Source: Sulfurovum indicum (GTDB lineage Bacteria > Campylobacterota > Campylobacteria > Campylobacterales > Sulfurovaceae). From it: DNA of 64,000 nt. Shown one piece after another: positions 5,815-13,220 of this stretch. Location: assembly GCF_014931715.1 (NCBI RefSeq), contig NZ_CP063164.1, positions 1,984,001 to 2,048,000 of the forward strand, given 5' to 3'. Both the position numbers and the translations under genes were made by a program. Every line of letters begins with the position of its first letter. The first letter of the stretch is position 1. A model generated the notes under the pieces. That model searched no databases. It saw only the letters and a list, made by a program, of their open reading frames with translations, and was not told the origin of the DNA.

Positions 5815-7166
5815 CTCTCATTCCTTGGATCTAATACATATTGTACCCTGTCAGAGAAAAGATTGGCAGCCAGCACCAGAACGAACATAAAACTGAAAGA
5901 GGAGAAGAGAGACCACCATACCATCGGTTCCCGTGCCATTTCCAAACGTGCCTGGTTGATCATATTTCCCCAGCTGTACATCGTCGGATCTACTCCTACA
6001 CCAACATACGAAAGTACCGCTTCCGCCAATACCAGGCCAGAGAAATCCAAGACTATAGAGATAAGGATAATGTGGGTCAGGTTGGGAACAATATGACGAT
6101 ACATAATGCGCCATTTGCTTACACCAAATGCCTTGGCCGCTGTAACATAATCCATCTGGGAAATACGCAAGGTCTCCGCACGCAGCAAACGGCACAATCC
6201 TGTCCAGCTTGTCAGACCCAAAATAAAGATAAGAAAAAGAAGACGAAGATCAGAGCGCTCAACTGTGGAAGCAAACCAGTCTGGATGATTGTCCATCATT
6301 ACCTGCATCATCAAAACCCCTGCTGCAATAAGCAGTACACCGGGAATGGAACTGAGTGTCGTATACAGGTATTGGATAAGATCATCGACCCAACCCCTGA
6401 AATACCCTGCACTCACCCCAAGAAAAATCGCCAAAGGCAGTGTCACAAGTGTCGTCAAAATACCAATAAGAACACCGGTCCTGATACTTTTCAAAGATGC
6501 ATAGAATACATCTCCTCCTACTTTATCTGTTCCCAGCACATGGTAGGAAAAACTCATCACATAAAGCCAGGTGAGCAGAACAATACAGAGAATCAGCATC
6601 ATATATCCTGTCCGCCAGGGCAACTTGGTTCTGCCCTTCAGTACCTCTGTTACCCGCTGTATCAAACTTTCCTCTTTCGTCCATAACAAATGCAGAAAGA
6701 CAAGGCTCCCGGCAATCAGCATTCCTGTCACTACCGCAATTAAAGATTTTTGACTGCTCTCTTCTGCAGAGACATACTTCAACGGAAGATTTTGCTGTCT
6801 GGTCAAACCATCCTCTCCCACAATAATTGATTTGGTGTACTCATGTGTCGCAAAAGGAGCAGAGTAGGTACGCTCTGAAAAGGCTTTCTGATGTCCAAAG
6901 GCCAGATCAAGCAAAGAGATGATCTCTCCTTCGCGAAAGAGCTCCTTTTCTGTTTGCTGTGTCACTTTGAAATGTACCGAATCCAATAGTGCGAAGAGCA
7001 GATAAAAACTCAAAACAACAGCTGAAGCCATGGCAATTTTCGAACGGAAGATGGCATACCACTTGCGCCTTGACTCTTCAGATCCTGAAAGCTGATGTCC
7101 CCACAGAATGATCACCCCCATCAATATCCATACCAATATATCGGTCCAAAGCAGCATAAGGCTCAT
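5811..7166 (-). CDS. Peptide ABC transporter permease (YejE/DppC-like)
   Basis: This is an inner-membrane permease of the oligopeptide family. The C-terminal part has the binding-protein-dependent transport signature (EAAxxG loop variant TAAKAFGVSKWRIMYRHIVPN). At 451 aa it is much longer than DppC (about 300) because of an N-terminal region with three or four extra hydrophobic segments and an intervening periplasmic loop, a layout like YejE. It overlaps both neighbours by four bases (ATGA), so it is translated together with the second permease and the ATPase. Confidence 0.9.
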   Translation of the reverse strand: MSLMLLWTDILVWILMGVIILWGHQLSGSEESRRKWYAIFRSKIAMASAVVLSFYLLFALLDSVHFKVTQQTEKELFREGEIISLLDLAFGHQKAFSERTYSAPFATHEYTKSIIVGEDGLTRQQNLPLKYVSAEESSQKSLIAVVTGMLIAGSLVFLHLLWTKEESLIQRVTEVLKGRTKLPWRTGYMMLILCIVLLTWLYVMSFSYHVLGTDKVGGDVFYASLKSIRTGVLIGILTTLVTLPLAIFLGVSAGYFRGWVDDLIQYLYTTLSSIPGVLLIAAGVLMMQVMMDNHPDWFASTVERSDLRLLFLIFILGLTSWTGLCRLLRAETLRISQMDYVTAAKAFGVSKWRIMYRHIVPNLTHIILISIVLDFSGLVLAEAVLSYVGVGVDPTMYSWGNMINQARLEMAREPMVWWSLFSSFSFMFVLVLAANLFSDRVQYVLDPRNER

Positions 7167-10603: not shown

Positions 10604-12076
10604 ATGGCACGATTAGTAGTAATGGGTGGTGGGGTCTCAGGACACACTGCCGCAACATTTGCAAAAAAGTGGCTGGGTGATGAGCACGAAGTAGTAGTCG
10701 TTACACCAAACTCACTATGGAACTGGATACCGTCCAATATCTGGGTAGGAGTTGGACAGATGACAAAAGAGGATGTAGTGTTCCCGCTTGCCCCTGTTTA
10801 CGAAAAAGCAGGTATTGATTACAGACAGGCAAAAGCAGTCTCTATTCATCCTGAAGGGAAAACTGACAGCAATACTCCATATATTACAATCGAATATACG
10901 GGACAAGGCAAAGAGGGGCAGACAGAGGAGATCACTTACGATTATCTGATCAATGCAACCGGGCCGAAACTGAACTTTGATGCAACACCCGGTCTTGGAA
11001 ATGGTGAAGGCGGAATAGGAGAACATACTGTCTCTGTATGTACTGCTGACCATGCAGTACATGCAAACCTTGAACTGCAGCGTATTTTTGAAAAAGCTAA
11101 AAAAGGTGAGAAACAGAAGATTCTCATCGGTACAGGTCACGGCATGTGTACATGCCAGGGTGCTGCTTTTGAATATATCTTCAATGTGGAACATGAAGCA
11201 AATAAAGCCGGTATAAGAGATATGCTTGATATTCAGTGGGTATCAAATGAATCATTCCTTGGAGACTTCGGAATAGGTGGTCTTCATATTAAACGCGGAA
11301 TGTATGCTGCAAGCTCCAAACTCTTTGCAGAGTCACTTTTTGTTGAACGTGGTATCAACTGGACTATCGGAGCACATATAAGCAAAGTAGAGGACAAAAA
11401 AGCCCATTACGAACTGCTGGATGGAAGTACCGGCGAAATGGAGTTTGACTTTGCCATGCTTATTCCACCATTTGCAGGTGTTGGGCTTAAGGCATATGAC
11501 AAAGCTGGTGAGGATATGACGGACAAGATCTTCGCACCGAACGGATTCCTGAAAGTCGATGCGGACTATACTCCAAAACCGTATGAGGAATGGAAAGCAA
11601 GTGACTGGCCAAGAACCTACCAGAACCCAACATATAAAAATATCTTTGCCTGTGGTATCGCATTCGCACCTCCACACCTTATCTCCAAGCCAATGAGTTC
11701 ACCAAACGGTACACCGATCAACCCGACACCACCAAGAACGGGTATGCCTTCCGGTATCATTGGTAAAGCCGTAGCACACTCTATCTGTGACTTGATCAAA
11801 GAGGGTGAGAATGCACATCTGCATGAAGCCTCCATGGCAGAGATGGGAGCGGCATGTGTGGCCTCAGCAGGTAAGGGACTGACTGACGGTACCGCAGCAG
11901 CACTGACCGTTTATCCAGTTGTACCGGACTTTGAAAAATATCCTGGGATTGGACGTGATCTAGACTACACTTTCGGTGAGATAGGACTTGCAGGTCACTG
12001 GATCAAACATATTCTGCACCATATGTTCCTCTATAAAGCAAAACTTAAGCCAGGCTGGACTTTGATCCCTGAATAA
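10604..12076 (+). CDS. sqr: Sulfide:quinone oxidoreductase family flavoprotein
   Basis: This FAD enzyme of the SQR/disulfide reductase superfamily oxidises sulfide and reduces the membrane quinone pool. The N-terminal dinucleotide fold is MGGGVSG (residues 7-13). Cysteines that could carry the persulfide relay are Cys146, Cys182-x-Cys184 in GHGMCTCQG, and Cys350 in IFACGIAFAPPH. The 490-aa length and the large inserts exceed classical type I SQR (about 430), pointing to one of the other SQR types, perhaps type III; I cannot assign the type firmly. The C-terminal amphipathic stretch HWIKHILHHMFLYKAK would bind the membrane. A very small gene follows 32 bases later. Confidence 0.85.
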   Translation: MARLVVMGGGVSGHTAATFAKKWLGDEHEVVVVTPNSLWNWIPSNIWVGVGQMTKEDVVFPLAPVYEKAGIDYRQAKAVSIHPEGKTDSNTPYITIEYTGQGKEGQTEEITYDYLINATGPKLNFDATPGLGNGEGGIGEHTVSVCTADHAVHANLELQRIFEKAKKGEKQKILIGTGHGMCTCQGAAFEYIFNVEHEANKAGIRDMLDIQWVSNESFLGDFGIGGLHIKRGMYAASSKLFAESLFVERGINWTIGAHISKVEDKKAHYELLDGSTGEMEFDFAMLIPPFAGVGLKAYDKAGEDMTDKIFAPNGFLKVDADYTPKPYEEWKASDWPRTYQNPTYKNIFACGIAFAPPHLISKPMSSPNGTPINPTPPRTGMPSGIIGKAVAHSICDLIKEGENAHLHEASMAEMGAACVASAGKGLTDGTAAALTVYPVVPDFEKYPGIGRDLDYTFGEIGLAGHWIKHILHHMFLYKAKLKPGWTLIPE

Positions 12077-12108: not shown

Positions 12109-12282
12109 ATGGGTAGTGTAGACCACTCTATTGAAAAAAATGTTAAAGCATATGAGCCAAGTTTTGAGGTAATGGTTCCGACACCATTTGTCAAATTTAT
12201 GAGAACTTGTATACTTTGGCAAATTATTCGATTTATCGTGATTAACATCAAAATGATTGTCGTGGTTCAAAAGAGTCACTGA
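12109..12282 (+). CDS. Small 57-aa protein encoded directly after sqr
   Basis: This gene runs from ATG at 12109 to TGA at 12282 and is preceded by AAGGAGAAGAA, a strong ribosome-binding site. The predicted protein begins MGSVDHSIEK and is soluble-looking for about 30 residues; residues 34-53 (CILWQIIRFIVINIKMIVVV) are hydrophobic and basic, as in an amphipathic or membrane-bound helix. It follows sqr by 32 bases, so it is probably co-transcribed. I do not recognise the family. A peripheral partner or quinone-side anchor of SQR is a guess based on position only. Confidence 0.65.
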   Translation: MGSVDHSIEKNVKAYEPSFEVMVPTPFVKFMRTCILWQIIRFIVINIKMIVVVQKSH

Positions 12283-12292
12283 CAAGATGTCT

Positions 12293-12308
12293 ACAGGCTT
12301 CGGCCTGT
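12293..12308 (+). terminator. Hairpin after the sqr small gene
   Basis: ACAGGC and GCCTGT pair around a TTCG tetraloop, a very stable type of loop. Only a weak T-run follows, so this may be an attenuating or stabilising hairpin instead of a full terminator. Confidence 0.5.
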
Positions 12309-12325
12309 ATTCCTAATAGATACAC

Positions 12326-12398: not shown

Positions 12399-13220
12399 AT
12401 GGTAAAAGAACTGATCATTTATCCTGACAACAGGATCCTTGCCTGTGGTGATGTACGTGGTTTTGATGAAAGCGTAGGCAAGCTTTTTGATGATATAAGA
12501 GAGACTATGGAACACTATGGGCTGGATGCCCTCAGTGCCATGCAGGTAGCACATCCTTTTAATATGTTTATTGTTAAAAAAGGTGAAAAGTATATTGAGT
12601 TTGCCAATCCGCGTATTCTTACAAAAGAGAAGCTTTTTGAAGCAGAGGAGCAGAGCAGCTACTACCCGGATGTCACTGCTGTCATCCCCCGTTATGAAAA
12701 AATGAAGATCGTCTATGAAGACCGTCACGGCAATACACACTATATGGATATAGAAGGGGACAAAAACTTTGCTGCAATATTTCAGCAGATGATGGACTTC
12801 TCACTTGGAGGTACGATGCTTGATCGTATCGATAAAAACCAACGCCAGAAGATCCTTGATGCATTGGAAGGCAAAGGACTTATGCCCGAAACAGGGGATG
12901 TATGTCCTACTTTCTCCAATAAAGACTACTTCATCAGTTTTGCCGACAAGCTTCTCTTCTTTATGGGTCTTTCTCTTTTAACACCGCTTTTCAAGCTTGA
13001 GAAAACGACAGTGGAAAATATCTATATGTTCGACAAGATTGCATTCCCTGCTGTGATCCTTCTGATGATCGGCTTCTTCTTCTATGCAGAGTACGAGGCA
13101 AAAAAATATAAACAGTGCAGCTCCTGCCAGATAGGAAACAATATAGGAGTGATGATTAAACGCTGTGTAGCAGCAATTGTATTTGCTCTTGGTGCCTACT
13201 TCCTTGTTAATCCAAATTAA
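12399..13220 (+). CDS. Peptide-deformylase-like membrane protein lacking the metal site
   Basis: The first 150 residues read as a peptide deformylase along the whole fold: ELIIYPDNRIL, the helix FDESVGKLFDDIRETM, then GLDALSAMQ (41-49) for motif I, EQSSYYPD (84-91) for motif II (EGCLS), and FQQMMDFSLGG (128-138) for motif III (HExxH). The motif II Cys, both motif III His and the catalytic Glu are all replaced, so it cannot be a normal deformylase. Residues about 183-270 add two or three membrane helices and a CSSC motif at 240-243. I chose ATG 12399 for its AAAGGG site and family N-terminus. It lies 116 bases after the small gene that follows sqr. Function unknown; a formyl-peptide or N-terminus sensor is a guess. 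Confidence 0.75.
   Translation: MVKELIIYPDNRILACGDVRGFDESVGKLFDDIRETMEHYGLDALSAMQVAHPFNMFIVKKGEKYIEFANPRILTKEKLFEAEEQSSYYPDVTAVIPRYEKMKIVYEDRHGNTHYMDIEGDKNFAAIFQQMMDFSLGGTMLDRIDKNQRQKILDALEGKGLMPETGDVCPTFSNKDYFISFADKLLFFMGLSLLTPLFKLEKTTVENIYMFDKIAFPAVILLMIGFFFYAEYEAKKYKQCSSCQIGNNIGVMIKRCVAAIVFALGAYFLVNPN

Follow-up and report, generated by a model that had tools for sequence, protein, structure and literature searches.

The locus analyzed here raises the question of what a protein built like a peptide deformylase (PDF), with the metal ligands and the catalytic Glu of the enzyme replaced and a membrane-type domain at its C-terminus, might do behind a gene for sulfide:quinone oxidoreductase (SQR). 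The corresponding gene lies at 12399..13220 on the forward strand of the window, i.e. the whole stretch of 64,000 nucleotides from Sulfurovum indicum (contig NZ_CP063164.1, positions 1,984,001 to 2,048,000) that was analyzed, and it codes for 273 amino acids and a stop. Re-reading of the sequence yielded the same coordinates and reading frame as the initial annotation, and Pfam, a fold model and alignments agree on the gene, the product of which is called pseudo-deformylase in the following.

Deformylase fold and loss of the active site

The assignment to the deformylase family is well founded for the N-terminal part of the protein. Its first 160 residues match the Pfam family Pep_deformylase (PF01327) with 80.4 bits at a cut-off of 22.8 (E 1e-22), and a sequence search against structures retrieved solved deformylases with E-values down to 6e-11. 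The equivalog cut-off of the NCBIfam model TIGR00079 was missed, with 44.8 versus 103.95 bits. An AlphaFold2 model was built from 75 family sequences and reached a mean pLDDT of 88; residues 1-162 of this model (12399..12884, forward strand) superpose on the E. coli PDF with a Z of 25 and an rmsd of 1.6 Å over 159 residues. The initial annotation had named a structure unlike deformylase as the outcome that would speak against its proposal, and the predicted N-terminal domain is that of a deformylase. It had also recommended a search for an intact def elsewhere in the genome; such a gene is present (G000:C1:2200590-2201078) and displays the motifs GVGLAAIQ, EGCLS and QHEIDH.

All three catalytic motifs are changed in the window protein, which makes the Pfam-based annotation as peptide deformylase wrong by every one of them. 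The former motif I (consensus GxGxAAxQ, in E. coli GIGLAATQ) reads LDALSAMQ at residues 42-49 (12522..12545, forward strand), where both Gly are lost and the Gln is kept. In the former motif II, EQSSYYP at residues 84-90 (12648..12668, forward strand), Ser replaces the Cys ligand of EGCLS, while the former motif III, QQMMDF at residues 129-134 (12783..12800, forward strand), has replaced both His and the catalytic Glu of QHExDH. The changes in motifs II and III had been described correctly from the sequence, including the loss of the Cys, both His and the Glu; the broken motif I had not been mentioned.

The same picture emerged when 89 near-full-length relatives from several families of Campylobacterota, the window protein included, were aligned with 20 canonical Defs. 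In the canonical proteins, every metal ligand and the catalytic Glu are present (20/20), whereas neither this Glu nor the second His occurs in any of the 89 relatives. The first His and the Cys are found in four each, never two metal ligands together, and not one of the 89 aligned relatives has retained the active site or an HExxH. The replacements themselves are conserved: T or S stands at the position of the Cys ligand in 80 and R or Q at that of the first His in 85 of the 89 sequences, the catalytic Glu is mostly exchanged for K, M or Q and the second His mostly for Y or F. In motif I, the first Gly is gone throughout (89/89), the position of Ile is mostly taken by Asp, Glu or Asn and that of the second Gly mostly by Ala, i.e. 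the substrate-lining G-I-G segment of PDFs mostly reads L-[D/E/N]-A. Residues E88, R102 and D135 (E. coli numbering without Met1) are kept in all 89 relatives and Gln50 of motif I in 80, and R20 and Y88 (numbering of the window protein) are newly conserved in the family. A local decay into a pseudogene, for which the initial annotation had looked to relatives keeping Cys and HExxH, is ruled out by the family-wide loss of ligands among the 89 relatives together with dN/dS values of about 0.03-0.1 in both domains, obtained for close relatives where substitutions were unsaturated. Judged from these alignments and rates, the pseudo-deformylase is a predicted pseudoenzyme that is maintained under purifying selection.

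Compared with bacterial type 1 PDFs (Def, PF01327, for example from E. coli and Helicobacter pylori), the pseudo-deformylase shares the fold over residues 1-162 as well as E88, R102 and D135; it differs by the missing metal ligands and catalytic Glu, the changed motif I, the membrane-type C-terminal domain and its position in a separate clade, since in the tree of N-terminal domains a branch with 99% support separates the family from true PDFs. Deformylases of type 3 from Archaea and trypanosomatid mitochondria are mostly weakly active or inactive and carry substitutions of crucial motif residues (PMC5591237). At the level of the motifs, such substitution is common to both groups, but the pseudo-deformylase has lost every catalytic residue and is distinguished by its membrane-type domain and its linkage to SQR. 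Weak or inactive PDFs were already known, while no description of a membrane-fused, SQR-tied form was found in open-licence papers.

The C-terminal domain and its cysteines

The deformylase domain is followed by a three-helix domain of membrane type (12921..13205, forward strand; helices 175-192, 202-236 and 241-269), which, given the predicted helices and the hydrophobic sequence, is probably a membrane domain. Such a domain with a CSSC pair had been noticed before, and both proved to be real. The pair (residues 240-243; 13116..13127, forward strand) is invariant in the alignments, and a further cysteine, C169 (12903..12905, forward strand), occurs in all aligned relatives that cover the position except two; C169, C240, C243, Q244 and N247 are thus the invariant or nearly invariant residues of this region. 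As no signal sequence is evident in the deformylase domain, it would be located in the cytoplasm, and three helices would place the cysteines on the same side.

Searches of Pfam, NCBIfam and the PDB gave no confident relative of the C-terminal domain. The FeoB-associated Cys-rich membrane proteins (PF12669) give 13.9 bits with the window protein, below the cut-off of 27, and weak matches with E-values down to 1.4e-4 in 38 of 57 members of the pseudo-deformylase family. A known fold was sought with Foldseek, where all matches had E-values of 0.39 or more, and with VIA-align, whose best Z of 12 lies inside the range for any three-helix bundle. Known sulfur-transfer families of Pfam and NCBIfam likewise did not match the pseudo-deformylase.

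Linkage to SQR and the small ORF between the genes

The sqr gene of the window (10604..12076, forward strand; 490 aa) codes for a protein that is closest, among solved structures, to the SQRs of Aquifex and Acidithiobacillus (3hyv, 3sz0), and three of its Cys align with Cys of the Aquifex enzyme, which we take to be the catalytic redox cysteines. A search of open-licence papers brought up neither a deformylase-like nor a 57-aa partner for SQRs of the Aquifex/Acidithiobacillus type. According to a review on Sulfurimonas, SQR types II, IV and VI are common in the group, and types I and IV form one clade (PMC4584964).

In our neighbourhood survey, sqr is situated directly upstream and on the same strand in 77 of 95 pseudo-deformylase loci, counts that are not independent because of shared descent from one origin; the other 18 are contig edges or second or moved copies. 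The next commonest neighbour occurs in 30 of the 95 loci and is confined to a subset. Genes for rpsI/rplM, an oligopeptide transporter, recR and MerR were considered as conserved neighbours, each being limited to a subset, and apart from sqr the flanking genes are not conserved across families. Relatives were found by a profile scan of genome contigs, and the best 80 of 142 all belong, judged by their titles, to Campylobacterota. In a phylum-wide sample of 249 genomes, each at least 90% complete, the pseudo-deformylase is encoded in 37 and an SQR of this kind in 56, all 37 carriers being among these 56. The 100 nearest genomes include 42 carriers, of which 40 possess the SQR; in the remaining two the gene is on short or broken contigs. 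Copies away from sqr exist in ten genomes, all of which have the SQR, and four of them (Sulfuricurvum) also hold an sqr-linked copy. The second copy in Sulfuricurvum lies beside a gene for a MerR-like regulator (L119, L120, L123, L126; about 6001-6804). One Campylobacterales group has the gene moved beside recR, with the SQR elsewhere (L101, L102, L105, L106 and L109, 6001-6810; L113, 708-1523).

On the SQR tree, the presence of the pseudo-deformylase fits three changes, namely one gain and about two losses. Genomes of the same genus as the window whose SQR falls outside the clade lack the gene, hence its inheritance tracks the SQR gene and not the genus. The pseudo-deformylase is not essential to SQR, because SQR often occurs without it (19 of the 249 genomes). 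Overall, the link to SQR is strong. The position after sqr had led to two suggestions in the initial annotation, a link to sulfide respiration or to membrane-protein N-termini: the former is supported, and the linkage across genomes points to SQR and its small neighbour and away from protein N-termini in general.

The pseudo-deformylase does not follow sqr immediately, however, since a small ORF of 57 aa that the initial annotation had missed lies in between (12109..12282, forward strand). In 100 of 105 loci, SQR is followed by a homologue of this ORF, also where the pseudo-deformylase is absent; four of the remaining five carry an ORF that is divergent but similarly composed, and one is a contig end. 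The Shine-Dalgarno-like sequence AAGGAG precedes the start codon closely in 13 of 13 loci read, the pN/pS amounts to 0.11, and the proteins contain a near-invariant Cys (97/100) and end on a C-terminal KSH. Neither Pfam nor NCBIfam has a family that matches the 57-aa protein, which may be a partner of SQR that has escaped notice. Two genomes of one family (f15) without the pseudo-deformylase have a thioredoxin-like gene after sqr and the small ORF (L138, L142).

Downstream of the small ORF, a hairpin without T-tract is located at 12292..12309 on the forward strand. In linked loci its position is conserved, with 67 of 75 having a hairpin within 50 nt of the small-ORF stop codon compared with 0.6 in shuffles, while its sequence varies and T-tracts are few; Rfam contains no known RNA element between the genes. 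This suggests that the hairpin marks a boundary between the unit of sqr and small ORF and the pseudo-deformylase, perhaps permitting unequal expression, and simple cotranscription is doubtful because the hairpin separates the two in most loci. The end of the small protein was considered as a marker of the pseudo-deformylase, since VV (versus LI/IL) is found in 48/48 linked, 9/12 unlinked and 1/13 loci without the gene, but the tree provides only three independent contrasts and we make no claim on it.

Possible role of the pseudo-deformylase

The reading we prefer, and to which we give about an even chance, is that a PDF paralogue without metal site and with a membrane-type domain was recruited a single time to serve one SQR clade as a non-catalytic accessory. 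It is supported by the linkage in the 77 loci, by the presence of SQR in all 37 carriers and in genomes with moved copies, by the pattern on the SQR tree, by the absence of an intact metal site from all relatives, by low dN/dS and by the fold match at 1.6 Å. It is weakened by the single origin behind the linkage counts, by the frequent occurrence of SQR without the gene, by the hairpin between the units and by a C-terminal domain without recognised relative. The co-inheritance with SQR suggests that an old enzyme of protein maturation was put to a new, non-catalytic use as a partner in sulfide respiration. Having lost the metal site and the substrate loop, the paralogue would be anchored by its three helices in the inner membrane and would expose the deformylase domain and the cysteines to the cytoplasm. 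Its remodelled groove may serve as a platform on which part of SQR or of the 57-aa protein docks, and the pseudo-deformylase may help to assemble the SQR unit or to hold it at the membrane, with the CxxC and C169 as a possible thiol contact for sulfane sulfur or the redox state. More tentatively, and in our view with a clearly smaller chance, SQR might be a membrane unit of three parts, in which the flavoenzyme and the 57-aa Cys protein are joined by a dead deformylase, the groove and cysteines of which assemble the unit or pass on sulfane sulfur. If so, it would be, to our knowledge, the first deformylase exapted for respiration.

The main rival, compatible with part of the accessory role, is a sulfur relay or a sulfide/redox sensor, where the sulfane sulfur that SQR makes is taken up or sensed by C169, C240 and C243, possibly together with the small protein's Cys, and the deformylase fold is a mere frame or regulatory domain. 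The cysteines are indeed among the most conserved residues, above most of the former active site, and the small protein has its Cys in 97 of 100 cases. However, a CxxC could equally bind a metal or be structural, known sulfur-transfer families do not match, and the small protein and SQR are also found without the pseudo-deformylase; a relay or sensor is hence rather unlikely in our view. It is also conceivable, though quite unlikely, that common descent and a chance position next to sqr are all that keeps the two genes together, and that the pseudo-deformylase fulfils an unrelated task in the membrane. One gain plus adjacency could produce the pattern by descent and the hairpin parts the units, but genomes in which the gene has moved from sqr still keep the SQR, and the other flanking genes vary across families.

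The initial annotation had envisaged a pseudoenzyme in the membrane that could still bind N-formyl-methionyl peptides, though not hydrolyze them, and would act as a sensor or chaperone, a role that the kept fold, the motif I Gln (80/89) and the complete conservation of E88, R102 and D135 would permit. The replacement of G-I-G in most members, a Gln that is not invariant, the remodelling of the metal site with conserved new residues and the linkage to a single SQR clade make this proposal improbable; because the substrate-lining segment is changed, it is less likely than a role as SQR accessory. If the accessory role is true, a protein-maturation enzyme has turned into a respiratory partner, and the pseudo-deformylase would offer a defined gene for asking how SQR is anchored and where the polysulfide goes in sulfide oxidisers of vents and sediments. 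Moreover, the locus draws attention to a small, nearly universal neighbour of this SQR outside the Pfam and NCBIfam families.
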